Assembly: GCA_040754395.1 (NCBI GenBank)
Contig: JBFMCL010000025.1
Coordinates: forward strand, 1 to 39,904
Length of the DNA: 39,904 nt
DNA from: Nitrospirota bacterium
Lineage (GTDB): Bacteria > Nitrospirota > Thermodesulfovibrionia > Thermodesulfovibrionales > SM23-35
Reading direction: 5' to 3'
Shown: in pieces, positions 14,726-38,152 of the stretch
Layout: each line of letters starts with the position of its first letter
Position numbering within the stretch: the first letter of the stretch is position 1
Program-made: the position numbers and the translations under genes
Notes under the pieces: generated by a model
Database searches by the model: none
What the model was told of the DNA's origin: nothing
Seen by the model: the letters and a program-made list of their open reading frames with translations, nothing else

Positions 14726-14814
14726 AAATCCTCCGGCTTTATCGCAAATCGCATCCGGCAATTGGTGAAGCAATACTTTGCATGTTCCTTACACCGGACA
14801 CGTTACGATTTCTG

Positions 14815-17013
14815 TTACAGTATCGGTTCCATCTCAAGCGCCGGATGTCCGGCACCCGCAAGGAATTCGAGCAATTTCTCTGAATCTTCACATATTGTCT
14901 CATCAGCGATTTTTTCAAACAGATCCGGGACCCCTTCCTCGGCTGCCCTTTGCTCCAAAGCTTCCCTGAGGCTTTCCTTCAGGTTCTTTGTCATCCAGAC
15001 GATACGTTTGATGCCGCCGTCACCCGCAAGAAATTTCTTGCTGACGATAAAGTTTCTGCCGACTCCCATAAACCCGGGGTTCTGGGTACCTCCGCCGACC
15101 GTTCCCGCCAATGTGGAAAACTTCATACCCACAGGAGTCATGCCGGTATGCCCGCGGTTGACTATCATGACGCCGTTCGCTTCCGGGATAATCGCAACAA
15201 TGCATTCAAAGCAGCCGCATGAGGTCATCGGATTTTCCATGATGGTATAAAGATTGAGCGTCTCAACCGCTCCTCCCGACGCTTTCTTCAGATATTCATC
15301 GATACCGGTAAAGCGTCCATAGCGGTTGTCGAGTAGTTCTCCCTTCGGGATAGGCTGGTTTCCGCCCGTAGGGTCTATTTCGAACGCTGCCTTGCAGTCA
15401 AGCCAGTTGTAGGCGCCGCACAGTCCGAGCCTCTCGGGGCTGATGACACACACATGACTGGGTGCAAATGACTGGCAGAGGAGACAGGAATAAAACGTAT
15501 CGACCGCTTCATCGACAAGTCCGCCAAGCCTCTGATCACGTTCCCTGTAAGATTGCCTTGCCTCTTCCTGCAGTCTCAGGACATCCTCTTCCTCGGTATA
15601 GATGGTCACCTGAACCTTGTCCACAATCGACCTGAATCTGTGATGTGTCATGGTCGTGTTGATGATCCCGATATGCTCAAGCGTGAACCCCTCTTTCTTG
15701 GCATTATGGTTTATCCGTATCCAGTTTATGTCACGCTGTCCCATATGCCATAAGCCTTGTGCTTCATTCAGATTATGGTGTATCTTGCGTTCTATGACAC
15801 CTTCAAAATCCTTCTGCATCTTTCTGCCGGCAACATCTATGACAATGCCGAGCGGCATCTTGCCGCCCTGCGCATACCGTTCCTGCCAGTTGTTTCCGAC
15901 AACCACAACCTTCCCGTCTTCTATTTCTTCCATATCCCTGGTTCTCACCCATTCGAACGAAGGGGTACGGGCTCCGCCGAACTCAATAAACATATCCTCT
16001 TTCCGTATCCTCTCGCCTTCAAATGCCGGACCGTATGCAACAGGAATCGGCGGCTTCTCAACGGTAATCTTCAGCCCTCTGACCTCGATCGCCTTCTGAA
16101 CGATTTTACTGTGGTCAAACTCCTTGTCGACTTCTTCATATATGCATACACCGGTAGGGTGGATCACCGGCACGTCTGTATCACACACAGCCGGATATCC
16201 CATGTTGATGGCTCCCGCGCCATTCGTCCATTTAATGTCATCCAGTTCCCCCAGCACCATGGCGAAGGCAAATACCCTGTCTTTTGTATATTTAAGATGC
16301 CCCCTGAAATCCCCGGGTTTTTTCCCGCCAAAGATAAGCGAGGCCCTTACAGACCAGTCAAGGGGATAGATCGTATGTTCTGTGTCGGGTCCGACAGGGA
16401 CTATTCTCGTTTCCCAGCCGAGTTCGACCCCCTTTCTCAGAAGCTGCTTCGTCACGCTGTTGCCGTTTACGTTCCCCGAAAGAAAGATGAGGATGTTCTT
16501 CTCCTGAAGTTCCCTGATAATCTTCACCGCGGTGTCGTCGTCAGGAGCGGCGCCGATGACCGCGGCAAAACCGGGCATTGTCCCGTCAACGAGCTGAATA
16601 CCGAGGTTCCTCTGTATCGTGTCAGTGATAAACCCGTTATATACATATCCTGTCTCGGGGTCAACCGCCGGCTCCAGTCCGTTCACATAGCGCAATGCCA
16701 TGAGTATCTCCTCGGCGAAGAGTGTCGCCATGCCGGAATCGAGCGCCTCACCCAGATATGGTCTCCATATGTGCTCCTCGGGCTCTTCATGCAGCAATTC
16801 CCTCGCCATGCCGAGTGCGACCCGCATGTCAGACAGATTTTTTACGGCAAAGCCTTTCATGGCATATATCATGGGGAGATAATATGCGGTATCGGGGAAT
16901 TCAAACACATGATTTTCGCCTTTCTCGGCAATAGCCTTCTCGAGCATCTCTTCGGCCTGCTTCACAAGTCCGTGTGCGCCTCGTATTGCTGCTGAGGCTA
17001 TTAACTTGGACAT
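14815..17013 (-). CDS. acsB: Acetyl-CoA synthase (CODH/ACS alpha subunit)
   Basis: A 732-residue protein that condenses CO, the methyl group of the corrinoid protein and coenzyme A to acetyl-CoA, or runs in reverse. The A-cluster residues are all present: Cys510, 513, 522 and 532 for the cubane and the SCGCFEC block (Cys599, Cys601) for the distal nickel. These numbers are offset by four from the Moorella enzyme. The N-terminal CO-channel domain is complete (LIASAAIRGAHGLVKQAEEM onward). The length is normal for the bacterial type. It lies 121 bases after acsC and about 90 bases before acsA. Confidence 0.97.
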   Translation of the reverse strand: MSKLIASAAIRGAHGLVKQAEEMLEKAIAEKGENHVFEFPDTAYYLPMIYAMKGFAVKNLSDMRVALGMARELLHEEPEEHIWRPYLGEALDSGMATLFAEEILMALRYVNGLEPAVDPETGYVYNGFITDTIQRNLGIQLVDGTMPGFAAVIGAAPDDDTAVKIIRELQEKNILIFLSGNVNGNSVTKQLLRKGVELGWETRIVPVGPDTEHTIYPLDWSVRASLIFGGKKPGDFRGHLKYTKDRVFAFAMVLGELDDIKWTNGAGAINMGYPAVCDTDVPVIHPTGVCIYEEVDKEFDHSKIVQKAIEVRGLKITVEKPPIPVAYGPAFEGERIRKEDMFIEFGGARTPSFEWVRTRDMEEIEDGKVVVVGNNWQERYAQGGKMPLGIVIDVAGRKMQKDFEGVIERKIHHNLNEAQGLWHMGQRDINWIRINHNAKKEGFTLEHIGIINTTMTHHRFRSIVDKVQVTIYTEEEDVLRLQEEARQSYRERDQRLGGLVDEAVDTFYSCLLCQSFAPSHVCVISPERLGLCGAYNWLDCKAAFEIDPTGGNQPIPKGELLDNRYGRFTGIDEYLKKASGGAVETLNLYTIMENPMTSCGCFECIVAIIPEANGVMIVNRGHTGMTPVGMKFSTLAGTVGGGTQNPGFMGVGRNFIVSKKFLAGDGGIKRIVWMTKNLKESLREALEQRAAEEGVPDLFEKIADETICEDSEKLLEFLAGAGHPALEMEPIL

Positions 17014-17134
17014 CCCGACCTCCTCAAATTGTTATTCATTAAAGTAATAATTCCTGTCCGGAATACGCACTTCGTATTTCCACAAATGCAAATTATGACC
17101 TGCCGTTCACTGTTCACTGTTAAAAGTTCCCTCA

Positions 17135-18478
17135 TTACGCTGCGCGTGTTTTCAGGAATGCCGGTATCCCGTTCGCTTCACGGGGGCCTACCGTAATCTT
17201 CCATCCCTCAAGTTTGTCTTCGAGCGCACCGCTCAGTATCGCAACATATCCGGGAATAATAAGTTCCCTGTGTTTTATGGTATTCCCCACTTCGCTCTCT
17301 TTGATGAACTGCGCAATCTTGGATGCCGTAAATTTCCCGGCTGCCCAGGCTGTCAGCACGGAGAGGCCTTCGCAGTCCATTACCGCGAGATATCCCGGAA
17401 CCCTGCTGTTCTCTATCTCTCCGGAAACGATGAAGTATGTAAGAGAAAAGTTCGTGGTGATAAACAGCGGCGATTCCTGTGAAGGTTCGCCGATCTTGTA
17501 GACCTTCTGTTCGACCTGCATCGGAACCTGCGGATCGGTATAGATGTTCTGCCTGAGGGTAAACAGCGCAAGGTTCTTCCACTTCTCGATGCTGCTCAGC
17601 ACGACTATGGAAGAATATTTTGCAACACCGACACCTGCTATTAAGGATTCAACAAGGCTGTCTTCCCTCTGCGCAAAGGTGATTACCGGGTATCCGAGAG
17701 GTTTGTAGTTCTTTTTTATGGCAGCCCGCCTGATCAGGGTATTATGTTCCAGAATTTCTTTGGCCTTCCTTGCACCGGAATCTATGACCATATCCTCGAC
17801 CCCGAGTGACTTGATCTTTTCGGTGAGCCCGGTGAGTTCATCAAGCGATTTTGCAGAAACCCCAAGCGTCGCCTTGTATGTTTTTGCAACCTGGACCATC
17901 CCTTCAGCATTCTCTGCAGTGACACCATACACAACCGGTTTTCTGTCTGCAAAAAGTTTTGCCCCTGCTTCAGCAGCCTGAGGGTCTGCTGTGCAGAGAA
18001 TGACCGGGATCTCAGGGGCTTCTTTTGCGATCAGTTGTGCGGCTGCTTCAAATTTCCCCGCATCATTCGAGTCATTCAGCAGCGCTACCGCATCGATCCT
18101 CAGTGTCTGCCCCACCCTGTCAACCTCCGAGGCAAGCGCCTCTTTTACCCTGAGCAAAATATCAGCCTCAGAGAGCGTATCTTTTATCTCAAGTGCAAAT
18201 GCACAGGGATTTACAAACCTTTTATCATGCCTGAACAGCACGGTTTCTTCGCCCATCTTTACCGCATGTTCTCCTGCCCCCAGCACAATCGGCCTTACAG
18301 GCGGAGCAGATGCCTCACCGAGTTTCTGTTTTGCCTCTTCAGAGACATCGGGACACGAATCCAGTGAAGCCTGCCGCTGGGCAAGCTTCATTGCGAACGC
18401 AAGACAGGTCGGAAATCCGCATTTCTTGCAGTTTGTTTTTGGTAGGAGCTTGAATATTTCAACACCAGTCAATGCCAT
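17135..18478 (-). CDS. acsC: Corrinoid/iron-sulfur protein large subunit
   Basis: A 447-residue protein. The N-terminal [4Fe-4S] domain has Cys17, 20, 25 and 42 (TNCKKCGFPTCLAFAMKLA), the signature of the CFeSP large (gamma) subunit. The remainder is the TIM-barrel plus C-terminal corrinoid-binding region. It carries the methyl group on cobalamin from AcsE to AcsB. The ATG is preceded by GGAGGGT. It is the third gene of the block, between acsD and acsB, and shows no anomalies. Confidence 0.95.
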   Translation of the reverse strand: MALTGVEIFKLLPKTNCKKCGFPTCLAFAMKLAQRQASLDSCPDVSEEAKQKLGEASAPPVRPIVLGAGEHAVKMGEETVLFRHDKRFVNPCAFALEIKDTLSEADILLRVKEALASEVDRVGQTLRIDAVALLNDSNDAGKFEAAAQLIAKEAPEIPVILCTADPQAAEAGAKLFADRKPVVYGVTAENAEGMVQVAKTYKATLGVSAKSLDELTGLTEKIKSLGVEDMVIDSGARKAKEILEHNTLIRRAAIKKNYKPLGYPVITFAQREDSLVESLIAGVGVAKYSSIVVLSSIEKWKNLALFTLRQNIYTDPQVPMQVEQKVYKIGEPSQESPLFITTNFSLTYFIVSGEIENSRVPGYLAVMDCEGLSVLTAWAAGKFTASKIAQFIKESEVGNTIKHRELIIPGYVAILSGALEDKLEGWKITVGPREANGIPAFLKTRAA

Positions 18479-18618
18479 TTAAACCCTCCAGAATTATCGA
18501 AATTCTCAATGCGAATATCTAAATCCTACACGTATTCAGGTAACGCTCTTTGCCGCAACTGTGCTGCTGCACGGTGGTATTGGTGGGAATTTAGATTTTC
18601 GGATTGACAGTTTTTCAT

Positions 18619-19560
18619 TTACACAAGTTCCTCAATTACCTTCTCCACTGCCGCAACAGCCTTCGGATGTCTCATGATAAGAAGCTCTGCGCCGGACATG
18701 AGGAGCGCGGTGGCGGTCATTGCTTCCCAGGCCACTCCCCTTTCTTCCAGTCCGCCCCACTGAGGCACGTCTGCTTCATCTGCCTGCGTTTCCTTTACTT
18801 TCCAGACATACATGCCGACATCGCCGAGGATGGGCTGCTGCATGGTGGCATCATTCTGGGTAAGCGCAGCAAGCCGTATGCGTTCCATCACCGAATAGGT
18901 GTATTCAAGACCGTATCCAAGGGCGGAACACATCGGGTCGGTGATAATCCTCTCTTTCTCGAAACCCATCTGAGTTATCAGTATGTTGAGCTGCTTCGAA
19001 AGATTGATGTCGAGTTCAGACATCGCAATCAGTTTATGGTTGTTCGCCATCGCAGCGGCGGCAATCGTCTTGTAATTTGCCTCCTGGGCCTTTCCGATGA
19101 CACAGTTCCTGTCCTTCGCAGCCTCTGCCGCAGCAATCAGAACCGGGGCGTCCTTTTCCGCATGGTTGCTCCCGAGTATGAACAGCGGAATACTGACTGC
19201 GTCAAGAACATTTCTTACTGTTGTTGCCGCATCTTCAGGCGACCGGTTCTCCCTGTCAGGATGAGTGCCCAAAAGCCTCAAAGCCAGCGCCCTTGCCTTT
19301 AACGTGTCCTGACAGAATTTTGCCCATACAGCCGGATCGTGCGAAACATCCTTATAGGGTTTTTGCACTTCTTCCGGCCAGTCAGAAGGGGGTATATCCT
19401 GAATCTCATAGGCGATAACCGGTCTGTGCGGGGTTGGGCCTTCAAAGCTATGGAACGGGAGGACACTCTCGCCCCCGAAAGCAATTTCCTGAGGGCTGCT
19501 GCCGATGGTTACGGAATAAACCTTTCCTGCATATGTTTCCTTCGATGGTGCAAAAGCCAT
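18619..19560 (-). CDS. acsD: Corrinoid/iron-sulfur protein small subunit
   Basis: About 313 residues from the ATG at 19558-19560, which follows GAGGAGG; a longer frame to 19587 adds nine residues without a signal. It is the TIM-barrel delta subunit of CFeSP and forms the heterodimer with AcsC that presents the corrinoid to AcsE and AcsB. Typical segments are KVYSVTIGSSPQEIAFGGES near the start and NMLxxQMGFEKERIITDPM-like LITQMGFEKERIITDPM in the middle. It lies between acsE (94-base gap) and acsC (140-base gap). Confidence 0.94.
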   Translation of the reverse strand: MAFAPSKETYAGKVYSVTIGSSPQEIAFGGESVLPFHSFEGPTPHRPVIAYEIQDIPPSDWPEEVQKPYKDVSHDPAVWAKFCQDTLKARALALRLLGTHPDRENRSPEDAATTVRNVLDAVSIPLFILGSNHAEKDAPVLIAAAEAAKDRNCVIGKAQEANYKTIAAAAMANNHKLIAMSELDINLSKQLNILITQMGFEKERIITDPMCSALGYGLEYTYSVMERIRLAALTQNDATMQQPILGDVGMYVWKVKETQADEADVPQWGGLEERGVAWEAMTATALLMSGAELLIMRHPKAVAAVEKVIEELV

Positions 19561-19654
19561 GTCTCCTCCTCTTTTCGTAGAGAGCACAGCACATAGAGCA
19601 AAGAGTATCTCGAATACCGGGCTCTATGCCGTTTGCACTTGCTCTTTGCGAGTA

Positions 19655-20437
19655 TTACATTTCAAGATACGAGTGGGCATACAGGGTATTGCCCGTTATG
19701 ACATCAACAGTCTTCACGGTTGGAGCAACTTCATGCGGATCAGCGATAGCTGCCGTAAGTCCTTCATACATCAACAGGGATAGATAATGGTTGTTCAGCA
19801 CCGGTCGTATATTCTTCGGACATCCGTTCGAAATATTGCTCAGCCCAACCACTGTTTTCATTGGCGGATCATTCAGTTCCTGAAACATTCTGACCGAGTG
19901 TATGACCTTCAGGGCATGATCCTGCGATGTGGCTATCTGCAGGACCAGCGGATCGAGGTACAAATCCTCGAGAGGAACCCCGTATTCCGCAGCTCTTGCC
20001 ATAATCTCCGCGGCGATTCCTGCCCGTTCTTCTGCATCTGCAGGCAGACCTCCCTTCCCGACGGTAAGCCCTATTATCTGTGCGTTATATTTCGCCGCAA
20101 GCTCGAGCGTCGGGAACCTCTCGGGGTCATTGGAGGTAGAGTTTATTAAAGGTCTTCCCCACGTATTGTTATGCACTTTCAGCCCGGCATCTACGGCAGC
20201 ATAGTTTGTGGTGTCGAGACACAGCGGAAGGGAGACAACCTCCTGGATAGTGGTCACCATCCACTGCATCAAATCCTCTCCGCCGTCTTCAGCAGGCCCG
20301 ATATTCGCATCGATCATTCCGGCACCAGCCTTCCACTGAGAAACTGCAATATCCTGGATAGGTACCTTGTCCTTCTTCATCATTGCCTCTCTCACCCGCT
20401 TGGCTATTATGCTTAATTTTTCGCCGATGATCAGCAT
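19655..20437 (-). CDS. acsE: Methyltetrahydrofolate:corrinoid/iron-sulfur protein methyltransferase
   Basis: A 260-residue protein of pterin-binding TIM-barrel type that transfers the methyl group from methyl-tetrahydrofolate to the cobalt of AcsCD. Recognisable blocks are MIDANIGPA, LCLDTTNYAAVDAGL, PLINSTSNDPERF, IGLTVGKGGLP, LYLDPLVLQIAT and TVVGLSNISNG, the last two being characteristic of this family. The length matches the usual 260 or so residues. The ATG follows AAGGAG. It is the first gene of the CODH/ACS block, downstream of a leader hairpin and a candidate promoter. Confidence 0.96.
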   Translation of the reverse strand: MLIIGEKLSIIAKRVREAMMKKDKVPIQDIAVSQWKAGAGMIDANIGPAEDGGEDLMQWMVTTIQEVVSLPLCLDTTNYAAVDAGLKVHNNTWGRPLINSTSNDPERFPTLELAAKYNAQIIGLTVGKGGLPADAEERAGIAAEIMARAAEYGVPLEDLYLDPLVLQIATSQDHALKVIHSVRMFQELNDPPMKTVVGLSNISNGCPKNIRPVLNNHYLSLLMYEGLTAAIADPHEVAPTVKTVDVITGNTLYAHSYLEM

Positions 20438-25053: not shown

Positions 25054-25159
25054 AGACCATGATCAATCTGCCAGGACCAAGTGATCATCCGTACGTGATT
25101 CGTACATTTCAGCAAATGCTCAGGAAACATACGTTGCCAGGCTCTTGTTCCGTATACGC

Positions 25160-25936
25160 ATGAATACTGTCATCCTTTACCTGTTCATCTTCGTTCTCGG
25201 TTCCCTGATCGGCTCATTCCTGAATGTCTGCATTTACCGGTTGCCCAGGAACCAGTCGATTGTGCTGCCGTCTTCAAAATGCCCCTCCTGTGACAATCCG
25301 ATCCAACCATACGACAATATCCCGATCCTGAGTTATCTGCTGCTCGGCGGGAAATGCAGAAATTGCAGGGCAACAATAGGCTTCAGATACCCGCTGGTAG
25401 AATTCCTGAATGCTTCATTATACGTCTTTATTGTATGGAGGTTCGGGATAGGGGTCCATACCCTTTTTTATTTTCTCTTCTGTTCGGCGCTCATTGCCAT
25501 CACCTTTATCGACCTGGATTTCCAGATCATTCCTGACAGGATCACCCTTCCCGGCATCCCGATCGGTCTTATCGCAGGGTCATTCCTGATGCCCGATCCG
25601 TTTCTGCGGTACACGCTTCTCGGGTTCAAATCGTCCGCAATCGGTTTTCTTGCCGGCGGCGGGCTTTTTTACGCGATTGCCGTACTCAGCAGAGGCGGCA
25701 TGGGAGGCGGAGACATCAAACTTATGGCAATGGTCGGGAGCCTCCTGGGATGGAAAGCGGTGCTCTCGACAACCTTCTTCGGCAGCCTTACGGGAGCTGT
25801 CGTCGGGATTTTCATGATGGTGATGAAGGGCAAGGGAAGAAAAACAAAAATCCCGTTCGGACCTTTCCTCGCGCTCGGCGCCCTTGTAAGTCTTTTCTAC
25901 GGCCAGGAGATTCTTTTCTGGTATCTCAGGAGGTAA
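25160..25936 (+). CDS. pilD: Prepilin peptidase / N-methyltransferase
   Basis: About 258 residues from the ATG at 25160; an in-frame TTG at 25145 would add five residues and neither has a strong ribosome binding site. This polytopic inner-membrane aspartyl protease cleaves and methylates type IV prepilins and pseudopilins. The cytoplasmic loop carries the CPSC...CRNC tetracysteine (Cys41, 44, 66, 69). The catalytic aspartates lie in FIDLDFQIIPD and MGGGDIKLMAM. The zinc-binding loop of the methylating type is intact. The stop codon overlaps the ribosome binding site of the following kinase gene. Which pilus or secretion system it serves cannot be said from this window. Confidence 0.93.
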   Translation: MNTVILYLFIFVLGSLIGSFLNVCIYRLPRNQSIVLPSSKCPSCDNPIQPYDNIPILSYLLLGGKCRNCRATIGFRYPLVEFLNASLYVFIVWRFGIGVHTLFYFLFCSALIAITFIDLDFQIIPDRITLPGIPIGLIAGSFLMPDPFLRYTLLGFKSSAIGFLAGGGLFYAIAVLSRGGMGGGDIKLMAMVGSLLGWKAVLSTTFFGSLTGAVVGIFMMVMKGKGRKTKIPFGPFLALGALVSLFYGQEILFWYLRR

Positions 25937-27255: not shown

Positions 27256-28056
27256 ATGTCCAGAATTACTATTCAGGATTTCCTGACAAAAAAGCATGAT
27301 CAGAAGAAAATCACCATGCTCACCGCCTATGACTATCCATTCGCAAAAATAGTCGATGAGGCCGGTATTGACGGCATAATTGTCGGCGACTCCCTGGGCA
27401 TGGTGGTACAGGGACTTGAAAACACCCTTCCGGTTACCATGGATGAGATGATCTACCACACAAAGATCGTTTCCAGGGCCGTCCAGAGCAGTCTTGTAGT
27501 CGGCGACCTCCCCTTCATGTCATATCAGGCCAGCCTTTCGGAAGCGGTCCGGAATGCAGGAAGGTTCCTGAAAGAGGCAGGCGCCTCGGCCGTCAAGATA
27601 GAAGGCGGCGCTGAAGTGGCAGAGCACATTAGGGCCATGACAAGGTCTGATATCCCGGTCATGGCGCACATCGGTCTCACCCCGCAATCGATCCACAGGA
27701 TGGGCGGGTACAAAGTCCAGGGAAAGACGGAAGAATCAGCACACAGACTTCTCGAAGAAGCCCGTATCGCTGAGGATGCGGGTGCGTTCTCTCTGCTGCT
27801 TGAGGCCATCCCCATGGGGCTCGCAAAGAAAATCACTGAGGAACTCTCAATCCCCACAATCGGCATCGGAGCCGGTCCCCACTGTGACGGACAGGTGCTC
27901 GTGCTGCACGACGTTATCGGTCTCTTTGAGCGATTCCTCCCGAAATTCGCAAAGAGATATACGAGTCTGAAGGATGAGGCACTCAAGGCAATCGAATTAT
28001 ACAGAAAGGAAGTCGAAGACGGGGTTTTCCCTTCGCAAGATCAGAGTTTCAAATGA
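27256..28056 (+). CDS. panB: 3-methyl-2-oxobutanoate hydroxymethyltransferase
   Basis: A 266-residue, full-length ketopantoate hydroxymethyltransferase, the first step of pantothenate/coenzyme A synthesis from 2-oxoisovalerate and methylene-tetrahydrofolate. Family blocks are [54 protein letters not shown] and [18 protein letters not shown]. The stop overlaps the start of the FKBP fusion gene (ATGA). CoA is also the substrate of the nearby acetyl-CoA synthase, but there is no sign of joint regulation. Confidence 0.96.
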
Positions 28057-29888
28057 GCGATGAGCTAGTGTCAAAAAATATTAGTGAGGAAACGGATTTA
28101 AAAGTTAAAACAGGGGATACGGTCAGGATACACTTCACTTGCACCCTTGAGGATGGGACCATAATTGACTCTTCCGTTAATAAGGAGCCTCTTGAGTTCA
28201 CTCTGGGGAAAGGGGAGGTTCTTTTTCCGGGATTGGAAGATGCTGTCATTGGAATGTATCGTGGAGAGTCTAAATCTATCACAATACCCGCTGAAAAAGC
28301 ATACGGCGTCCATCTCCCTGAAAAGATTTTTACTATAAGCCGGACCCAGTTTCCACCTACTCTGGAACCGGTCATCGGAATGAAATTTGAGATACAACAA
28401 ACAGATGGTAAGATGACTGTTGTTAGGGTAACAGATGTTCAAGAATCCTGTGTAACCCTGGATACAAATCATCCTTTGGCAGGAAAAGACCTCTTCTTTG
28501 AAATTCAATTACTCGATCAAGATATTACTGATATGTCAAAGGCACATGAACTGTATCAGCAGGGAACTGCTTATCAGGATAGGGGACAACTGGATGAGGC
28601 TATATCCTGTTATCAGAAGGCTGTCAAACTCGATCCTAAATTGTTTAAAGCATTTTATAATCTAGGGGTTGCTTTTCAGAATAAGGGAAACATTGATACC
28701 TCTATTCTTTATTATGAAATCGCTTTAGGACTGAATCCTGAATTTCTTGAAGCATATCATAATCTTGGGATTGCATACAAAGATAAAGGGCAATTTGATG
28801 ATGCAATTATGTGCTTTCTTAGGGCAATACAGATCAAAGCGGATCACGTCGGAGCGTATTATAATTTAGGGAATACACTTGTCGCTAATGGTCGATACAA
28901 CGAGGCATTGCAGATATATAAGAAAGTGCTCGATATAAAACCGGATTATCCTGATGCTCATTTAGCTATAAGTATGCTTAATTTAAGATTGGGAAACTTT
29001 CAAGACGGCTGGAAAGGATATGAATATCGATGGAAATTAGAAGAGAATTTGAACAGGCGCGAGTACTCTAAGCCCTTATGGGATGGTTCCGACCTGCAGG
29101 GGAAATCAATCCTGCTGTCAGCTGAGCAGGGTTTCGGAGATACTATCCAGTTTATCCGTTACGTCCCTCTCTTAGCTCAGCGGGGATCAAAAATAATCGT
29201 TGAGTGCCAGAAGGAATTATCCTCTCTGATCAGAAATATCAAAGGGGTCCATACAGTCGTTTCAAGGGGAGAACAGATTCCTGAATATGACGTCTATTGC
29301 CCTCTCCTGAGTCTGCCCCTCATGATAGGAACAACATTGCAGAATATCCCTGCCAACATCCCTTATATCAGTGTCGGACCTGAATTGAAAACAAAATGGG
29401 CCGGAAAAATCAGCCGTTTCAGTCATACTATGAAAATTGGGCTGGTATGGGCAGGACACCCGAAGCCAAAATTCGGCCATACCCGTTCTTGTCCGTTGAA
29501 CCTGTTCTTCCCTTTAAGGGAATTCGAAAAAATCACCGTCTTTAGTTTACAGATGAATAACGATCCTCATCGTGAACACACGCTGGAAAAAGATCTGCCA
29601 ATAATAGATTTCACTGGTGAAATAAAGGACTTCCACGATACTGCAGCTTTCATCGAAAATCTCGATTTAATTATCTCAGTTGACACGGCAGTTGCCCATT
29701 TGGCAGGTGCCCTTGGCAGGCCAGTCTGGACTTTGCTTCCTTTTGTTGCAGACTGGCGCTGGCTTGAAAACCGCGAGGACAGTCCCTGGTATCCGACTAT
29801 GAGACTTTTCCGACAACCAGCTATTGGAGACTGGGAATCAGTTATCGATCGCATTTTCGACAGTTTAAAGGTCTTTCTTCGTAATTAA
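28053..29888 (+). CDS. FKBP-TPR-GT9-like fusion protein
   Basis: A 611-residue protein with three parts. Residues about 18-160 are a SlyD-type FKBP peptidyl-prolyl isomerase ([38 protein letters not shown], and the closing [13 protein letters not shown]). Residues about 165-330 are four to five TPRs ([38 protein letters not shown]). Residues about 345-611 are a GT9-like domain ([65 protein letters not shown]). The ATG overlaps the panB stop (ATGA). Isomerase and glycosyltransferase in one chain suggest action on proline-containing unfolded or surface protein segments. The acceptor is unknown. Confidence 0.9.
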
Positions 29889-30112
29889 TATTACTTCTCT
29901 ATTATTCCGGATATTCATAAATTCTAATGAAAAATATATCCAATAATACTAAGAGTTTTAATATTATAGAGATCGAAATAACAAGAACACGAAGAAAATT
30001 TATATTGGCGTTTAATTTTTTATTGATAGGATGCTATGATATATAGCACATCCGCTTACTATCGAAAAGCCGGACTCGGAATATATATATTTATTTATGA
30101 AAAGGAGAAGAC

Positions 30113-30541
30113 ATGGCTGTTGCAGATTTTGGTAGAACAGTAAAAGTACACTATACTGTGAAGCTTGAGGATGGCACCGTTGTTGACAACACACGTAACC
30201 ATGAACCGTTTATATTTACTGTAGGAACAGGCCAGGTGATTCCTGGTTTTGAGACCGAAGTAATAGGAATGAGCCTCGGAGAAAAAAAGTCTTTCAAGGT
30301 TCCTGTTGAAGATGCATATGGTGAATATTATAAGGAATTAGTCACAGAAGTCGATAAGAAAGAATTCCCTGACGACTTTCAGTTTGAAGCAGGACAGCAT
30401 TTGGAGTTTCCAGGTACGGATGGCCAGGTTGGTCTTGCAACTGTTCTCAAGGTTACAGATACAACAGTCATATTCGACAGAAACCACCCACTGGCAGGCA
30501 AAGAGTTATTTATGGACATTGAGATATTAGAGGTTATTTAA
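30113..30541 (+). CDS. SlyD-type FKBP peptidyl-prolyl cis-trans isomerase
   Basis: A 142-residue FKBP with the SlyD layout: VKVHYTVKLEDGTVVDNT, PGFETEVIGMSLGEKKSF, an insert-in-flap chaperone region (about 65-120), and the terminal NHPLAGKELFMDIEILEV. The histidine/cysteine-rich metal tail of E. coli SlyD is absent. AAGGAG precedes the ATG. It lies between the FKBP-TPR-GT9 fusion and the TPR-GT9-GT2 gene and is similar to the FKBP part of the former. A shared origin by duplication is likely. Confidence 0.93.
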   Translation: MAVADFGRTVKVHYTVKLEDGTVVDNTRNHEPFIFTVGTGQVIPGFETEVIGMSLGEKKSFKVPVEDAYGEYYKELVTEVDKKEFPDDFQFEAGQHLEFPGTDGQVGLATVLKVTDTTVIFDRNHPLAGKELFMDIEILEVI

Positions 30542-30555
30542 CCAGTCTTCCATAA

Positions 30556-33006
30556 GTGGATCTTCAGGAATCATTTGATAGGGCGCTCGCTCACTTTCAA
30601 CAGGGGAAGTTGGGGGAAGCCGAACAAATCTGCCAGCAAATATTATATACCCGGCCAGATAGAAGTGATGTTCTTCATCTTCTCGGTATCATCTTTTTGC
30701 AACAGAAAAAAATTGAAAAGGCGATTGCATATCTTGAACAGGCAGTACAAATTGATATCCATGATCCCTATCTTTATTTCCATCTTGCAAATGCTTATCG
30801 GGAACATGGAATATCCGGGAAAGCAGTTACATACTATCAAAAGTCAATTGAACTTGCTCCGCATTTTGATGACGCTTATTATAATCTTGGAATAACACTG
30901 GAAGGAGAAGGAAACACTGATGAAGCAATAGATGTATATAAGAGGGCCTTACAACTGAATCCTGAAGCTACAGATATCTGGAACAATCTTGGAGTTGCCC
31001 TGCGCAAGAAACGCCAGTTGAATGAAGCCCTCAATTGCTTCAGAAAAGCTATTGAATTTAATCCCACATACTTGCGTGCTTTGTTTAATCTCGGCATTAC
31101 TTATCAGGAGATGGAGCAATTCAACGAGGCCTTAACATATTTCAAAAGAGTTACCGAACTTGAACCGGGATTTGCTGATGCATACCATAGCATGGGAACT
31201 GTCTGCAGAGAGATGTTCCAGTTGGATAATGCAGCACACTGGTATCAGGAAGCAATAAAACATAATCCAAACAGTTCCGAGATCTATACAAACTTAGGAT
31301 TGGTTTATGAGGAGAAAGGAGATATTGATCAATCTATTTCAAGTCTTCGCAAAGCAATAAAGCTTAATCGATGCGACCCGGAAATCCACTGGAATCTGTC
31401 ACTGGTCCTTTTGTCTGCTGGAAACCTCAATGAGGGCTGGCAAGAATATGAATGGCGCTGTTTAATAAAGGACTTTGGATTGCGCAGGTTCGCCCCACCC
31501 AGATGGGACGGTTCATCTCTGCGTAGAAAAACAATTTTCATATATGCTGAGCAGGGCATCGGTGAGGAAATCATGTTTTCCTCATGCATTCCGGAAATCA
31601 TCGAGCGGGGTGCTTCCTGTATTGTGGACTGCGATAAAAGGCTCGTTCCTCTTTTCGGAAGATCTTTCCCTGAAGCTGAGATACTCGACCGGTCGGCTAT
31701 TGTTCATTTGTCAGCCGAAATTCTTCGTGCAGACTTCTGTTCTCCGATGGGGAGTCTCCCACTATTCTTGCGTTCTAATCTCAGAAGTTTTCCACAGCGG
31801 AATTCCTATCTTGTGCCCGACACGAAGAAAGTAACTATGTGGCGTTCCCGATTTGCAAATTTGGGGGCGGGCCTTAAAATAGGAATTTCATGGCGTGGAG
31901 GTAGCAAAAAATGGGACCGACTTGTCCGATCAACCATGCTCTCTCAATGGGACAAGGTATTTTCCGTAACCCATCTTCATTTCATCAATTTGCAGTATGG
32001 AGACTGTGCTGCTGAACTAAATAACGCAAAAAACACAAAGGGCATCACCATCCATGACTGGGAGGATGCCGATCCCCTGAAGGACCTCGACAATTTTGCC
32101 GCACAGATCGCGGCGCTCGACCTGGTCATTTCTGTCGACAATGCCACCGTGCATATGGCAGGCGCTCTGGGAAAACCTGTCTGGGTATTGCTGCCCTTTG
32201 TCTGCGACTGGAGATGGATGCAGGACTTTGAGGATACCCCCTGGTACAAGACTCTCCGGCTCATCCGCCAGAAGACTCCGGGGGACTGGGACGGCGTATT
32301 TAGGCGTGTCGTATCCGACCTGAAACACTACCTCGAAACAGGCTCCATGCCTGAGATCACCAATTCCTATACACGCGCATGCACTGACACCCCTCAGGAA
32401 CCTGTCTTTCCTTCCCTGACCCCCTCATCCGACACTCCTTACCGGTGCGCGGTGATCACCCCCGTAGGCCCCGGTCACGAGAATCTGTATCAGGAATGTC
32501 TTGCCTCTGTCGAAAACGCCTTCAGGGAAAAACCGGCACACTGTACCGGGTTCATCCCTATACGGATCGACGATCCCCAGGGGAAACTGGGCCGTTCAAA
32601 GGCCCGCAATCTCGGTATTCAGAAGGCTTCCGAACAGGGGGCTGAATGGATATTCTTCCTTGACGCAGATGACCTGATGTCTCCTTCTGCGTTTGAATAT
32701 GTAGGACCCTATCTGGATAAGTATGATGCCGTCTGGGGTTCCATCTGGAGTATTGAATCAGGAGAGTCGACTGCCAGGGAACGTCCGAAACAACTGCCGT
32801 TCCTTTACGGCATCGAAGACGTACTTTCCTGCGATCCCTTCGTGAGTCTCCAGATGGGACATTTTGTACGGACACCTGTCGCACTGTCTGTTCTCTTTAA
32901 CGAATCTATCGACACGGGAGAGGACTTCGATTACTACCTCAGGGTCTGGGAAAAGTACCGCTGTATAAAAATTCCTCTGCCATTCATTTACAAAAGAGCC
33001 TTTTAG
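30556..33006 (+). CDS. TPR-GT9-like-GT2 triple-domain glycosyltransferase
   Basis: An 816-residue protein starting at GTG 30556, 14 bases after the FKBP stop and without a good ribosome binding site, so probably coupled to it. Residues about 1-280 hold eight TPRs, then NLNEGWQEYEWRC. A GT9-like domain follows (GIGEEIMFSSCIPEI, GLKIGISWRGGSKK, DLDNFAAQIAALDLVIS, DNATVHMAGALGKPV). From about residue 625 a GT2 (GT-A fold) domain begins (YRCAVITPVGPGHENLYQ), with a DADD metal/nucleotide motif at 703-706 (EWIFFLDADDLM) and a later GEDFDYYLRVWEK block. It may add two different sugars. Base composition becomes GC-rich from about 32040. Confidence 0.88.
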   Translation: MDLQESFDRALAHFQQGKLGEAEQICQQILYTRPDRSDVLHLLGIIFLQQKKIEKAIAYLEQAVQIDIHDPYLYFHLANAYREHGISGKAVTYYQKSIELAPHFDDAYYNLGITLEGEGNTDEAIDVYKRALQLNPEATDIWNNLGVALRKKRQLNEALNCFRKAIEFNPTYLRALFNLGITYQEMEQFNEALTYFKRVTELEPGFADAYHSMGTVCREMFQLDNAAHWYQEAIKHNPNSSEIYTNLGLVYEEKGDIDQSISSLRKAIKLNRCDPEIHWNLSLVLLSAGNLNEGWQEYEWRCLIKDFGLRRFAPPRWDGSSLRRKTIFIYAEQGIGEEIMFSSCIPEIIERGASCIVDCDKRLVPLFGRSFPEAEILDRSAIVHLSAEILRADFCSPMGSLPLFLRSNLRSFPQRNSYLVPDTKKVTMWRSRFANLGAGLKIGISWRGGSKKWDRLVRSTMLSQWDKVFSVTHLHFINLQYGDCAAELNNAKNTKGITIHDWEDADPLKDLDNFAAQIAALDLVISVDNATVHMAGALGKPVWVLLPFVCDWRWMQDFEDTPWYKTLRLIRQKTPGDWDGVFRRVVSDLKHYLETGSMPEITNSYTRACTDTPQEPVFPSLTPSSDTPYRCAVITPVGPGHENLYQECLASVENAFREKPAHCTGFIPIRIDDPQGKLGRSKARNLGIQKASEQGAEWIFFLDADDLMSPSAFEYVGPYLDKYDAVWGSIWSIESGESTARERPKQLPFLYGIEDVLSCDPFVSLQMGHFVRTPVALSVLFNESIDTGEDFDYYLRVWEKYRCIKIPLPFIYKRAF

Positions 33007-33037
33007 GCATTAACACCAATTGAATTTATTTTTGATT

Positions 33038-33475
33038 TTATTTCTTTGAGGGTTTAACAGGACAAACAGCATAATATAATTGATTTAATGGAGAAGTAGC
33101 CTCTATTGCTTTCCAGTCAGATCTGGTTTTGTTCATTGTATCAATTGCATTACCTCTTTTATCATAATATGCCTTTGATTTGATTTGAGCATGTTTGGTA
33201 TAACAGTTAATTTCAATCAATGATATTACCTCAACCAGATCTGCATATTTAGGCCCAAGATGAGAAATGATTCTATCAAGCGACTCATCATTAAAAATAA
33301 CTTTTTGCCATACACCTATAATTTCTCTTGAATTCTCAAGAGGATAATTAATACTTTCCTTATCATAATAATAATGATCATTGTAGTGGTCGAACAGTCT
33401 CCATTCTTCTGCTCCTGCTGAAGATGAAACAAAGATAATTATTATTCCTATAATAATTTGAAATATTTGTTTCAT
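33038..33475 (-). CDS. Secreted protein resembling surface-adhesin protein E
   Basis: A 145-residue protein with a Sec signal peptide (MKQIFQIIIGIIIIFVSSSAGA, cut into two parts here: MKQIFQII then GIIIIFVSSSAGA). Cleavage is likely after residue 22. The mature part has EEWRLF, YYYDKESI, VWQKVIF, SLIEINCYTKHAQIKSKAYYD and a closing LYYAVC. That order and the two cysteines match the adhesin-E-type domain common in small proteobacterial exported proteins. Function is not established. The gene is convergent with the triple-fusion gene, 31 bases away. Confidence 0.6.
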   Translation of the reverse strand: MKQIFQIIIGIIIIFVSSSAGAEEWRLFDHYNDHYYYDKESINYPLENSREIIGVWQKVIFNDESLDRIISHLGPKYADLVEVISLIEINCYTKHAQIKSKAYYDKRGNAIDTMNKTRSDWKAIEATSPLNQLYYAVCPVKPSKK

Positions 33476-33531
33476 AAACTATTGTCTAAAAGCCATCCTT
33501 TTTGATAGTAAATATGGAAATAATCTTGTGT

Positions 33532-33667
33532 AGCCCAAATCCAGCGATACACATAGTCATTGCAAGTACAATAAAGCAATCTTGTCTCATTTGAAATTGC
33601 CACAAACCTTGCAGGTGCTCGCAATAACCCGTTTACCGAACTGTTGATTTATTTATCGCTGGATCTA
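33532..33667 (-). repeat. MITE-like intergenic repeat, copy C (inverted)
   Basis: This is the reverse complement of copies A and B. It runs from AAATCCAGCGATA to TATCGCTGGATCT, which form an 11-base terminal inverted repeat (ATCCAGCGATA). Internal blocks GTCATTGCAAG, GCAATCTTGTCTCATTTGAA, CTTGCAGGTGCTCGCAATA and CGTTTACC correspond to those of copy B. Its right end overlaps the 3' end of the pentapeptide gene and supplies the last codons (SSDK) and the stop. Confidence 0.78.
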
Positions 33668-34431
33668 AGTTTTAATTTCTTCAGCAATCTGGGACTCAGT
33701 TGAACATCCTTCAGCGATTGAACACCCGTCAATTGCTCTAAAGTAAGTTTAATGGCACCTTTCAAATTGACTCGATCAAGATTGGCCCCCTTGAAATGCG
33801 CTCCCTGCAGTAAAGAACCACTCATATTCGTATCGGTCAAATTGGCACCATTCAGTTTCGCTCTCCTAAATTTTGCGGAAAAAAAATCTCCTCTCGAGAG
33901 ATTAGCCCCTTGAAGGGTTGCATCAGTAAAATTTGTCCCATTGCACCCTGCTTCTGTTAGGTCTGCTTCGTTTAAGTCAGCTTTCGAAAGATCTGCTCCA
34001 CTCAGTTCAGTTTTATAGAGAATTGCGGCTTGCAGGCTCGTTCCAATCAAATTAGCTCCGATGAGATATGCTCCACTTAAATTTGCCCTTTTGAGATTAG
34101 CTCCACTGAAATCCACCCCGCCAAGCTCAGCATTACTGAGATTCGCATTCAGAAGTCTCGCCTCAACAAAAGAGGCCATAAGGAGAACAGCGCCAACCAT
34201 ATTGGCTCCGCTGAGATCTGCTCTGCTAAGATCAGCACCATGCAGATACGTTCCAACGAGACCCGTCCCAATAAGCTGTGCACCTCTGAGACTGGACCCC
34301 CTGAGATCTGCTTCATTAAGTTCCGCTCCATTGAGATTCTTTTCTGAAAGATCCCATGGACCCTGAGGCATCTCTCCCTGAACAGCTTTCAATTCGACCA
34401 ACTTTTTCCATGTTTGTTCTCTCGTAAGCAT
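33649..34431 (-). CDS. Pentapeptide-repeat protein
   Basis: A 260-residue protein. Residues 28-227 form forty uninterrupted pentapeptides of the A(D/N)LXX type (DLSGA, NLSGA, NLIGT, DLSKA), enough for about ten coils of right-handed beta-helix. A helical cap (TREQTWKKLVELKAVQGE) precedes it and LTLEQLTGVQSL follows. Such helices can mimic DNA (gyrase-protecting Qnr/MfpA type) or act as adaptors; sequence alone does not choose. No signal peptide is seen. There is no ribosome binding site; a TATAAT lies about 13 bases upstream. The final residues come from repeat copy C. Confidence 0.9.
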   Translation of the reverse strand: MLTREQTWKKLVELKAVQGEMPQGPWDLSEKNLNGAELNEADLRGSSLRGAQLIGTGLVGTYLHGADLSRADLSGANMVGAVLLMASFVEARLLNANLSNAELGGVDFSGANLKRANLSGAYLIGANLIGTSLQAAILYKTELSGADLSKADLNEADLTEAGCNGTNFTDATLQGANLSRGDFFSAKFRRAKLNGANLTDTNMSGSLLQGAHFKGANLDRVNLKGAIKLTLEQLTGVQSLKDVQLSPRLLKKLKLRSSDK

Positions 34432-34553: not shown

Positions 34554-36356
34554 TTGTACAAGTATATGAACATTAAGCAGATAACCCTCTCAGCCATAGA
34601 ATACCTCCAAAAAGGAGATTTACAATATGCAGAAAGTCTATTCCGTCATATACTAAAAATTCAACCTAACAATGTCTCCGCCCTACATTTTCTTGGCGTA
34701 ATATATTACCAGCGCAAAGATTATAATGGATCTATAGAACATATAAATAAAGCACTTCATTTTGGCCCCAATTATGCTGATGCTTACAATAATTTGGGAA
34801 TAGTTTTGCAGGAAACAGGTCATTTAGAAGAAGCAACAGTTTGCTACAAAAAGGCTCTTAATCTTAATCCAAATTTTTCCAGAGCTTATTATAATCTTGG
34901 TAATATTTTTAGGGAGAAATGGCAACTAAACAATGCTATACATAATTATCAGAAAGCGATTCAGCTAGAACCTAATTTTTTTGAAGCATACAATAATATT
35001 GCTCTTGCGCTTCAAGATCAGGGGCTGCTAAAAGAAGCGGAAAAAAATTATAGGAATGCCCTTCAAATTAAGCCGGATTTCCCGGAATGTTACAGCAACC
35101 TCCTTCTCATGATGCATTATGATACACGATATGATTCGAAAAAAATCTTTTATGAACATCTGAGATATGCAAATCAGCTAACAAGATCTTTTTCACCATC
35201 TGTTATGCCTTATAATAACGATTGTTCATCTGTTCGTCGTCTAAAAATTGGTTATGTTTCACCGGATTTCAGAAGGCATTCAGTTGCCTATTTTATCGAA
35301 CCTATTATTACCACACATGAACGGCAGTCTTTCGAAGTAATTTGCTATTCTGATGTGCCTCGTGAAAAAGAAGACGAAGTGACTTTGCGTATCCAGGGGC
35401 ATAGTGATCAATGGCGAAACATCACGGCAATGTCAGATGAACAGGTGGCACAACAAATACAATCGGACCAAATTGATATCCTTATTGATCTCGCAGGACA
35501 TACCGCATTCAACAGAATGCCTGTTTTTGCACGAAAACCTGCCCCCATACAGGTAAGCTGGATAGGGTACCCTGCTACTACTGGCCTTTCAACAATGGAC
35601 TTTAAGATTGTTGACAGCTATACAGATCCTCAAGGAATGACAGAAAAATTTTTTACAGAAAAACTGCTTCGTATGCCTGATAGTTTTCTCTGCTATTTGC
35701 CCGACAAAGATAGCCCTGAAATAAAGCCATTGCCCGCACTCTCTTCTGGCCATATAACTTTTGGCTCTTTTAACTATTCATCAAAGATCTCACCTGATAC
35801 TGTTACACTCTGGGCCAATATCTTAAACAGAATGCCAAGCACCTGTCTATTATTAAAATCACGGAATTTTGTAGATAGCAAAACTGGTCAGCATATAATG
35901 AATATGTTTAATAAACTAGATATTTCTGCTGAAAGGATAGTTTTGATCCCTTCGAGCTGTTCTTTCATTGAGCATCTTTCAATGTACAACCAAATTGACA
36001 TCGCATTGGATACATATCCCTATAACGGAACAACTACCATCTGTGAAGCGTTATGGATGGGTGTTCCGGTGATCACTCTATCGGGGAATACCCATGTGTC
36101 ACGTGTCGGTATGAGTATTTTATCGAATGCTGGTTTGTCCAATTTTATCGCTGAATCACATGAACAATATCAAGAAATTGCGATAAATACAGCACATGAT
36201 TTCGAAGAGTTGCAACGTCTCCGCACCATACTAAGGGACAAATTACTGAATTCAGCACTCTTACAAAAAGAAAGGTTTACCCGAAATCTTGAACACATCT
36301 ACAGAGACATATGGAATACATGGTGTCAATCTCATAAAGGAGGAGATATATTTTGA
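34554..36356 (+). CDS. TPR-O-GlcNAc-transferase-like glycosyltransferase (GT41)
   Basis: A 600-residue protein. Five TPRs (about 10-180: DAYNNLGIVLQETGHLEEAT, AYYNLGNIFREKWQLNNAI) precede a GT41 catalytic domain. The key histidine (His242, in GYVSPDFRRHSVAYF), the catalytic-site lysine (Lys411, in FNYSSKISPD) and the nucleotide-binding block NGTTTICEALWMGVPVITL are all retained, so it should be active. The family transfers N-acetylglucosamine or a related sugar to Ser/Thr of proteins. The start is TTG 34554 or ATG 34566, neither with a good ribosome binding site. Its stop overlaps the next gene by four bases. Confidence 0.9.
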   Translation: MYKYMNIKQITLSAIEYLQKGDLQYAESLFRHILKIQPNNVSALHFLGVIYYQRKDYNGSIEHINKALHFGPNYADAYNNLGIVLQETGHLEEATVCYKKALNLNPNFSRAYYNLGNIFREKWQLNNAIHNYQKAIQLEPNFFEAYNNIALALQDQGLLKEAEKNYRNALQIKPDFPECYSNLLLMMHYDTRYDSKKIFYEHLRYANQLTRSFSPSVMPYNNDCSSVRRLKIGYVSPDFRRHSVAYFIEPIITTHERQSFEVICYSDVPREKEDEVTLRIQGHSDQWRNITAMSDEQVAQQIQSDQIDILIDLAGHTAFNRMPVFARKPAPIQVSWIGYPATTGLSTMDFKIVDSYTDPQGMTEKFFTEKLLRMPDSFLCYLPDKDSPEIKPLPALSSGHITFGSFNYSSKISPDTVTLWANILNRMPSTCLLLKSRNFVDSKTGQHIMNMFNKLDISAERIVLIPSSCSFIEHLSMYNQIDIALDTYPYNGTTTICEALWMGVPVITLSGNTHVSRVGMSILSNAGLSNFIAESHEQYQEIAINTAHDFEELQRLRTILRDKLLNSALLQKERFTRNLEHIYRDIWNTWCQSHKGGDIF

Positions 36357-38152
36357 AAAAAAATATTAATAATGTGGTTGAATCTGCCATAGAGCATTGC
36401 CAGGCGGGTGACCTAAAACGATCGGAAGCAATTTGCTATCAGATATTGGAGATGCAACCTGATAACCTTCGGGCTCTTAACATACTTGCAATCATATATG
36501 CTCAGCGCTCAGAGTATGATTCTGCCATAGACTGTTTGAAAAAAGCGCTGAATGTTGATCCATCTCATGCAAATCTATTAAGTAATCTGGGACATGCGTA
36601 CTTTGAAAAAGGTGATCTCAAGAATGCTATCAGATGCTTCCGAAAAGCAATAAAGTTAAACCCCCAGCTTTTTGATGCGCATTACAGGCTTGGCACAGTT
36701 TTTCATCAGAAAGGAAAGCTGTCTGAAGCAATAACCAGTTATAGGAAAGCCTTATCACTCAACCCGGATATGTTTGAAGTATCGTACAAGCTTGCTCTTG
36801 CTTTAAAAAATAGTGGCAAATTAGATGAAGCTCTGAAATTTAATCAACAAGCAGCAAAAGTTAACCCCAATTCTCCTGAAATACATTTTAATATGGCAAA
36901 TATTTACAGGGAAAAGGGGCAAATTGATGAAGCTATCACTTTTTATAATAACGTAATACAGTTGAGTCCATTTCATACTATGGCTATGACGAATCTGGGT
37001 ATGGCTCTGCAGGAAAAGCAGCTATTGGATGAAGCGATTGCAATATATCAGAAAGCGCTTCTCTATGATCCTGATTCAGTTATTATCTTGAATAATTTAG
37101 GCACTGCGCTCAGGGATAAAGGACAGCCTGAGGAGGCATTAAAGTATTTTCAGAAAGCAATCAAGCTAAAAAGAAGTTTTGCTCTTCCACATTATAATCT
37201 GTCTCTCACACTTTTACTCATGGGACAATTGAAGAAAGGCTGGAAAGAATATGAATGGCGATGGAAAGTCGAAGGGTTGTTTTCACCTCGTAATTTTTCG
37301 CATCCACAATGGGATGGGTCTTCACTAAAAGGAAAATCTATCTTGGTTTATTCCGAACAGGGAATTGGTGATGAAATCATGTTTGCTTCATGCCTTCGCG
37401 GGGTTATTGCTCAGGCTGATCTGTGCACTGTTGAATGTGATAAACGATTGATGCCCCTTTTTGCAAGGTCTTTTCCTGAGATTCAAGTAATAGACCGTTT
37501 TGCAGCTGCTGATTTAAGCCCGTCAGGCTTTCCCAATGCTGATGTGAAAATTGCGTTAGGCAGTCTCCCTAAATTCCTCAGACCCGACTTCTCCAGCTTT
37601 CCTCAGGACAACTCTTTTCTCATCCCAGACTCTCATAAAGTAGAACACTGGAGCAGGCGGTTTTCAGAGATAGGTTCAGGCCTGAAAATAGGTATTTCAT
37701 GGCGTGGAGGCAACAATCCCACTGCACAACTAACCCGTTCAATTATTCTCGAAACATGGGAGAGTCTATTCTCTATTCCGGGGATTCATTGGATCAATCT
37801 TCAGTATGGCGAGTGCAGCAAAGAGTTAAAAGCTATAAAAGAAAAATTCGGAATAATAATTCACGACTGGGAAGATGCAGATTCTCTGAAGGATCTTGAT
37901 AATTTTGCAGCACAGATTGCTGCACTCGACCTAGTAATATCTGTGGACAATTCAACAGTTCATATGGCAGGTGCTTTGGGAGTCCCTGTTTGGGTTTTGC
38001 TGCCTTTTGCTCCGGATTGGCGCTGGATGCTCAATAGATCAGACAGTCCCTGGTATCCAACAGTAACACTTTTTCGCCAACCTATACATGGAGATTGGGA
38101 ACCAGTCATAACAGAAGTGAGGAAATGCCTCAAGTCATATAAGACAATATAG
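36353..38152 (+). CDS. TPR protein with C-terminal GT9-like glycosyltransferase domain
   Basis: A 599-residue protein with about eight TPRs (residues 10-285) and a GT9-like domain of the DN(A/S)TVHMAG subtype (GIGDEIMFASCLRGV, GLKIGISWRGGNN, INLQYGECS, SVDNSTVHMAGALGVPV, closing with SDSPWYPTVTLFRQP). The start is TTG at 36353, overlapping the upstream stop (TTGA) and preceded by AAAGGAGGAG with a seven-base spacer. This is strong evidence of translational coupling to the OGT-like gene. It is a close relative of the remnant at 186-863 and of 30556-33006. Confidence 0.88.
   Translation: MKKNINNVVESAIEHCQAGDLKRSEAICYQILEMQPDNLRALNILAIIYAQRSEYDSAIDCLKKALNVDPSHANLLSNLGHAYFEKGDLKNAIRCFRKAIKLNPQLFDAHYRLGTVFHQKGKLSEAITSYRKALSLNPDMFEVSYKLALALKNSGKLDEALKFNQQAAKVNPNSPEIHFNMANIYREKGQIDEAITFYNNVIQLSPFHTMAMTNLGMALQEKQLLDEAIAIYQKALLYDPDSVIILNNLGTALRDKGQPEEALKYFQKAIKLKRSFALPHYNLSLTLLLMGQLKKGWKEYEWRWKVEGLFSPRNFSHPQWDGSSLKGKSILVYSEQGIGDEIMFASCLRGVIAQADLCTVECDKRLMPLFARSFPEIQVIDRFAAADLSPSGFPNADVKIALGSLPKFLRPDFSSFPQDNSFLIPDSHKVEHWSRRFSEIGSGLKIGISWRGGNNPTAQLTRSIILETWESLFSIPGIHWINLQYGECSKELKAIKEKFGIIIHDWEDADSLKDLDNFAAQIAALDLVISVDNSTVHMAGALGVPVWVLLPFAPDWRWMLNRSDSPWYPTVTLFRQPIHGDWEPVITEVRKCLKSYKTI

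Follow-up and report, generated by a model that had tools for sequence, protein, structure and literature searches.

A TPR protein with GT9-like and GT2 glycosyltransferase domains in a Nitrospirota genome, altered in both transferase domains

A gene on the plus strand at 30,556–33,006 of the window, by which we mean the whole 39,904-base stretch of Nitrospirota DNA analysed here, encodes an 816-residue protein that joins a TPR superhelix, a GT9-like GT-B domain and a GT2 GT-A domain. The same arrangement recurs in four other genomes, in three of them beside flagellar genes. The window copy ends before the C-terminal tail of its GT2 domain, carries Glu in place of a conserved Asp in its GT9-like domain, and lies in a genome in which we found no match to the flagellin/FlgL or FliG profiles. 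As a whole, we consider it somewhat better than an even bet (roughly 55%) that the protein descends from a FlmG-type glycosyltransferase with an added transferase, and that the window copy is an altered remnant or a repurposed version of it.

The gene begins with GTG, ends with TAG (33,004–33,006) and has no internal stop in the frame as read from the window. Pfam, the AlphaFold model and VIA-align place the TPR superhelix at residues 3–304 (30,562–31,467), with 18 helices, about nine repeats and Pfam TPR_1 matches in seven stretches (E = 4e-62). The GT9-like domain occupies residues 326–595 (31,531–32,340) according to Pfam, the AlphaFold model and homologue and profile alignments, and a linker of about residues 596–625 (32,341–32,430), with NSYTRA at 603–608, leads into the GT2 domain (32,431–33,003; Pfam, homologue alignment and AlphaFold model), which lacks its C-terminal tail. 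Glycos_transf_2 (PF00535) matches the full protein with E = 2.2e-9 and 37.9 bits, and the GT2 block scanned separately with 40.6 bits, both above the cut-off of 23.3. Within this block lie the DADD (DxD) motif at residues 703–706 (32,662–32,673) and a GED (xED) motif at 788–790 (32,917–32,925), which supplies the catalytic base feature and is unchanged in all 13 aligned GT2 rows.

An earlier note, made from the sequence, had proposed these three domains in one polypeptide, with DADD in a second, GT-A domain; the open frame, the Pfam matches and the AlphaFold model agree with it on both counts. It had named a stop or frameshift near 32,400 as the observation that would separate the GT2 part, and we found no support for one: the linker and its flanks share one frame, as they do in fused relatives. 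It had also suggested a domain search and a structure prediction. The search returned the same order in G018, G035, G358 and L031, which rules out a frameshift or chance fusion, since an order that recurs in other genomes is not a frameshift artefact; the prediction modelled the TPR helices, a GT-B-like block and a GT-A block.

That model, built from a 14-row alignment, has a mean pLDDT of 86.3 and a pTM of 0.59, at which the mutual placement of the domains is not certain; its blocks are the 18 helices at residues 3–304, the GT-B-like block at 326–595 and the GT-A block at 629–814. In VIA-align, residues 3–274 scored Z = 30.7 against a consensus TPR protein and Z = 28.5 against the TPR domain of OGT (1w3b), and 449 residues of the stretch 3–602 aligned with OGT (7ntf_B) at Z = 27.9 and an rmsd of 17.5. 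Because the full model returns mainly TPR proteins, this comparison barely probes the GT9 part. A PDB sequence search with the GT9-like domain gave no match, either with the single sequence (E up to 10) or with a 25-row profile (E up to 1). A GT41 identity for the GT-B part was unsupported: residues 279–595 matched PF01075 alone (E up to 0.1), and PF13844 was unmatched.

Scanned separately, this GT9-like block (residues 279–595) scores 18.8 bits against PF01075 (Glyco_transf_9), below the gathering cut-off of 22; four other GT9-like genes of the window exceed the cut-off with 24.1 to 31.8 bits, and the domain is 58% identical to that of the paralogue at 36,353–38,152. Profile–profile alignment with the E. 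coli proteins WaaC, WaaF, WaaQ and WaaU, which is good at the first strand and loop and again at the C-lobe motif but poor in the stretch between, sets the GIGD loop of the family on WaaC GD13, so that the family Asp falls on WaaC Asp13. The C-lobe motif SVDNATVH (residues 526–533; 32,131–32,154) aligns with the WaaC stretch SVDTGLSH (hhalign probability 95, pairwise E = 4e-8, 40 columns) and contains the Asp and His of the GT9 donor motif (WaaC D261 and H266). Set against this likeness to WaaC/HepI are the score below the Pfam cut-off, the Glu at the base position, the fusion to TPRs and an acceptor presumed to be a protein.

The Asp expected after the first beta strand of a GT9 enzyme is Glu337 in the window copy (codon GAG, 31,564–31,566; homologue and profile alignments). 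All 45 homologues with a residue at this position have Asp, the 46th row of the alignment being a gap, as do all 24 further domains that cover the motif (from a set of 28 domains in 20 loci, of which four partial ones starting past the motif were left out). Judged from these alignments, Glu337 likely occupies the position of WaaC Asp13, the proposed catalytic base. In HepI, D13A lowers activity 4,688-fold (PMC5713226), and D110A in TibC is among the changes reported to abolish or largely diminish heptosylation (PMC4358343). At the 41 GT9 columns conserved to 95% or more, the window domain deviates by D337E alone, and its terminal branch in the GT9 tree is 0.37 against a median of 0.43. With 816 codons free of stops and an ordinary GT9 branch, the copy shows no sign of general decay, and an Asp-to-Glu substitution may keep activity.

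The second alteration lies at the other end of the protein. All 12 aligned GT2 homologues end in a tail N-R-x-x-(H/R)-(S/A)-x-G, in which the H/R position is occupied by His 11 times and by Arg once (L038); in the window copy, homology ends at YKR and is followed by AF and the stop (32,998–33,006), leaving the protein with no C-His or equivalent in a C-terminal tail. A C-His in this tail is common among GT-A enzymes and not universal. We equate the tail His with the C-His described in PMC7185993 because it follows the last strand, a positional argument rather than one from residue-by-residue alignment; that source describes several GT-A clades in which the C-His has been lost and water or another residue substitutes. 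The final beta strand of the GT2 core is still present in the AlphaFold model of the window copy. In a leave-one-out comparison of the GT2 alignment, the window sequence deviates at 6 of 52 otherwise invariant columns, two of the six being the missing tail, G035 at 5 of 53, and the remaining 11 sequences at 0 to 2. Given the lost tail and the replaced Asp, one or both sites probably work weakly or not at all; with an open frame, an ordinary branch and C-His loss tolerated elsewhere, the alterations may be recent or some activity may persist.

Around the stop, GC content drops from about 49% to about 31%. Directly behind the truncated end, on the minus strand, lie an Adhesin_E-like gene (33,038–33,475; 30% GC) and a pentapeptide-repeat gene (33,649–34,431; 45% GC), which possibly arrived with the event that cut the GT2 domain. 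No terminator-like site follows the stop; 29,850–33,700 as a whole holds seven, against 2.6 in shuffles.

We searched a phylum sample of 395 genomes with the GT2 part of G035 including its tail and obtained matches in six. Four of these fuse GT2 behind TPR-GT9 (the window genome, G018, G035 and G358); in the other two the domain lies in a 777-residue frame with methyltransferase domains (G007) and in a 277-residue frame (G373). A scan of named genomes gave nine GT2 loci, one of them fused (L031, from a Planctomyces MAG). A TPR-GT9 gene directly precedes the GT2 gene in four loci of other bacteria (L032, with a GT9 match of 20.0 bits below the cut-off, L033, L035 and L038), and in L034, L036, L037 and L039 no GT9-like match of at least 200 residues was found within the locus DNA scanned. 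The fused relatives are 892 (G018), 1,120 (G035) and 1,176 residues long (L031), G358 being cut by a contig end. The G035 fusion extends into an FkbM methyltransferase domain (71.1 bits), and that of L031 matches Methyltransf_25 with 21.8 bits, short of the cut-off of 27; neither FkbM nor Methyltransf_25 was among the 25 families shown for G018. A search of the window genome for the methyltransferase part of G035, run without a positive control, gave no match.

TPR-GT9 is also joined to FKBP in G004 (L068), where GT2 matches weakly (20.6 bits, cut-off 23.3), and to another GT9 domain in G003 (L065). GT9-like domains of this kind occur in 106 of 289 genomes in the class of G406 (an Azospirillum record). 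Next to TPR glycosyltransferase genes lie genes for giant proteins of 2,037 residues (L040:3508–9621) and 2,971 residues (L080:4321–13236), both combining multiple GT2 domains with TPR stretches; the first also has a sulfotransferase domain, the second a methyltransferase domain.

In the GT9 tree, the window and G035 domains form a group (87/84, not starred) within a starred set of eight (99/98) that contains G358 and leaves G018 outside. This set includes five GT9-only proteins, two from G013 and one each from G006, G007 and G017, genomes in which no PF00669 match was found. Four of the five end 14 to 30 residues past the domain with an SY(K/R) motif, the counterpart of NSYTRA in the window linker, that the linkers of G018, G035 and G358 share; it is absent from the G017 protein and from the L031 linker. 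These shared ends suggest that GT2 was lost from a fused ancestor, though a later addition of GT2 to an ancient tail would leave the same pattern.

The claim of the earlier note that two potentially independent transferase sites stand behind one TPR array thus holds up for the family, with four fused genomes and four loci of neighbouring genes, and is weakened for the window copy by the missing tail and Glu337, neither of which it mentions. A disaccharide, the product it had envisaged on a single bound protein, is something that we infer for any copy, and its synthesis by the window copy is doubtful.

The surroundings of the fused relatives point to a substrate. In G018 the fused gene follows FlgN, FlgK and FlgL-like genes, with one gene for a 2,037-residue multi-GT protein between; the FlgL-like gene is the only PF00669 match above cut-off in that genome, the other match being a fragment at a contig edge. 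In G035 the fused gene is flanked on one side, at 1.3 kb, by a gene for a 264-residue flagellin and on the other, from 3.2 kb onwards, by FlgL-like, FlgK and FlgN genes, while fliD is the next gene in L031, 180 nt after the fused gene. G358 has three PF00669 matches, and its contig with the glycosyltransferase gene is 3,991 bases long. PF00669, which matches both flagellin and FlgL, has a match above cut-off in all four fused-relative genomes, and FliG (PF01706) was found in G018 and G035. With flagellar genes next to three of the four fused relatives, the ancestral role was likely to place a short glycan on a TPR-docked flagellar protein, that is, the ancestor was likely an extended FlmG-type enzyme.

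The window genome (G000, 99.96% complete) gave no match to PF00669 or to PF01706 (FliG_C), with control genomes positive. We discarded FliD_C (PF07195) as a flagellar marker: it is empty in G000 and also in the flagellated G018 and G035, and an empty result in G000 is therefore uninformative. Within the sampled family f1, PF00669 matched 2 of 20 genomes (G011 and G018). The GT9-like domain was matched in 17 of 101 sampled genomes, of which we left out four weak matches (G014, G040, G089 and G091; E = 2.6e-5 to 7.8e-4). Among the 13 strong ones, PF00669 is present in five (G011, G018, G035, G077 and G095) and absent from eight (G000, G003, G004, G006, G007, G013, G016 and G017), so there must be further acceptors for the TPR-GT9 family. 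The GT2 gene of G007 is unfused and keeps its tail, although that genome lacks PF00669 and FliG matches; a scan of 11 neighbouring genes on contig C15 of G007 for a substrate gave no acceptor candidate, these genes encoding TPR or giant multi-GT proteins, sulfotransferases, an FKBP-sulfotransferase and one protein without a match.

The window gene itself lies 14 nt downstream of an FKBP-type prolyl isomerase gene (30,113–30,541, plus strand), a possible operon mate. Further genes on the same strand encode a 611-residue FKBP-TPR-GT9 fusion with a paralogous GT9-like domain (28,053–29,888), a TPR-GT41 (OGT-type) glycosyltransferase recognized by Pfam (34,554–36,356) and the TPR-GT9 paralogue without GT2 (36,353–38,152). 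The 445-residue protein encoded at 38,187–39,524 matches TPR profiles weakly at its N terminus, and its C-terminal part has no Pfam or NCBIfam match; from where it lies, it may be another glycosyltransferase. FKBP fusions also occur as GT9-FKBP with a weak GT2 match in G004 (L068) and as FKBP-sulfotransferase in G007 (L080:13560–14684), and FKBP has thus repeatedly been joined to protein-modifying domains.

TPR glycosyltransferase genes occupy both ends of the contig (1–5,642 and 28,053–39,904), with a third-position GC of 0.32–0.40, compared with 0.48 for the TPR-GT9-GT2 gene and 0.54–0.64 for the core genes between the ends, among them a carbon monoxide dehydrogenase/acetyl-CoA synthase cluster with NADH-dehydrogenase-like subunits at 7,024–20,437. 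Third-position GC rises within the gene from 0.38 (30,556–31,563) to 0.55 (32,401–33,003); given the values of the core genes, this is no clear sign of transfer. The contig (C25) ends inside a GT9-like gene and, by sequence, a GT41-type gene, and the assembly therefore probably broke in repeats. An Rfam scan of the window gave no family at gathering score.

One of the closest known systems is FlmG, the enzyme that O-glycosylates flagellin in Caulobacter crescentus: its TPR half binds flagellins, and its GT-B half, the transferase, attaches pseudaminic acid to them (PMC7591256). Its 596 residues, divided into an N-terminal TPR half and a C-terminal GT-B half (PMC7591256), equal the TPR-GT9 part of the window protein in size. 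FlmG acts on flagellin in the cytoplasm (PMC7591256), whereas the window genome has no PF00669 or PF01706 match and so apparently makes no flagellin; the part of the FlmG description on which we drew names no second glycosyltransferase domain, in contrast to the GT2 domain here, and the likeness is one of layout and description. OGT and SPINDLY (GT41) share the general layout of a TPR superhelix followed by GT-B and differ in that the window GT-B part matches GT9, not GT41, in Pfam and is followed by an extra GT2 domain. In Pseudomonas syringae, Fgt1, Fgt2 and VioT with the methyltransferase VioM are described as building a flagellin glycan stepwise, with a methylated distal sugar (PMC3927599); these, likened to our case by description, are separate enzymes. 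No title or abstract among the open-licence papers searched dealt with a TPR-GT9-GT2 fusion.

For the second domain, the intact GT2 domain of L031 resembles K4 chondroitin polymerase (2z86/2z87) and other GT2 GT-A enzymes. Its best VIA-align row is 2z86 (Z = 18.8, rmsd 3.1, 212 residues), which ties with WrtF (18.1), with TarP (17.9) close behind; TarP is the top Foldseek hit. K4 chondroitin polymerase is a precedent for two sites within one chain; both of its sites are GT-A, and its product is a polysaccharide.

We propose that the ancestor was a cytoplasmic FlmG-type protein glycosyltransferase with a second transferase. In intact relatives, the TPR superhelix would, by analogy with FlmG, dock a protein destined for export, either flagellin or some other protein of the flagellar filament; the GT9-like GT-B site would attach a first sugar, the GT2 GT-A site would add a second, and the methyltransferase domain, where present, would cap the glycan. 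In the window genome, which apparently lacks flagella, the copy would be a recently altered remnant or a repurposed version that retains the TPR array and both folds; most likely, one or both of its sites are impaired and it acts on another acceptor or on none. We infer the reaction order, the donors, the flagellar acceptor, the loss of activity and flagellar loss as its cause. More tentatively, with the odds against it, the intact family (G018, G035, L031 and probably G358) may be a one-chain glycan assembly line for flagellar filament proteins, in which a TPR-held protein passes from GT-B to GT-A and, in one or two members, on to a methyltransferase, with domain order fixing glycan length and capping; the window copy would then represent a stage of dismantling after the loss of flagella, and the GT9-only relatives that stop just past the linker a later one.

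Three other readings deserve weight. That one domain is inert, structural or lectin-like, most likely with GT9-like active and GT2 inert or the reverse, is a minority possibility that overlaps with the altered-copy reading and differs from it in giving the protein a current job. The two sites are altered independently, and the GT9-only relatives of the same clade, which end shortly after the linker, illustrate that proteins without GT2 persist; why an inert domain should retain its catalytic motifs is left unexplained. Less probable still is a fully active bifunctional enzyme that uses Glu337 as base, runs GT2 without a C-His and builds a disaccharide on a non-flagellar acceptor such as pilin. 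The open frame, the intact DADD, GED and C-lobe motifs and the lack of a long branch are what such an enzyme would show; some GT-A families tolerate C-His loss (PMC7185993), the eight strong GT9-like genomes without PF00669 imply other acceptors, and the window holds a prepilin peptidase gene at 25,145–25,936. Against this, Asp is found in all 69 sampled domains that cover the position and the tail in all 12 homologues, neither change occurring elsewhere in the sample.

An error of assembly or sequencing, with the stop at 33,004 or the base at 31,566 wrong and the real gene intact, is improbable. The genome is a draft of 75 contigs, the window is all of contig C25 (39,904 bases) with both ends inside glycosyltransferase genes, and composition falls around the stop, all of which would fit such an error. 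A simple base error would leave a tail remnant in place, and the absence of one counts against it: in all frames of the window a search for the GT2 tail gave no meaningful match (best E = 0.14), and the tail-including query (E up to 1e-12) found the truncated gene alone in its own genome. The altered FlmG-type descendant is our best account.

FlmG exemplifies the single transferases for which TPR-guided glycosylation of proteins is known in bacteria. The window copy is mainly a natural comparison, with the same scaffold, altered sites and a genome in which flagellar genes were not found. If true, the recurrent fusion to a second transferase, and at times also to a methyltransferase, would allow a defined oligosaccharide to be assembled on a docked protein without a lipid carrier and would give glycan engineering a compact tool.
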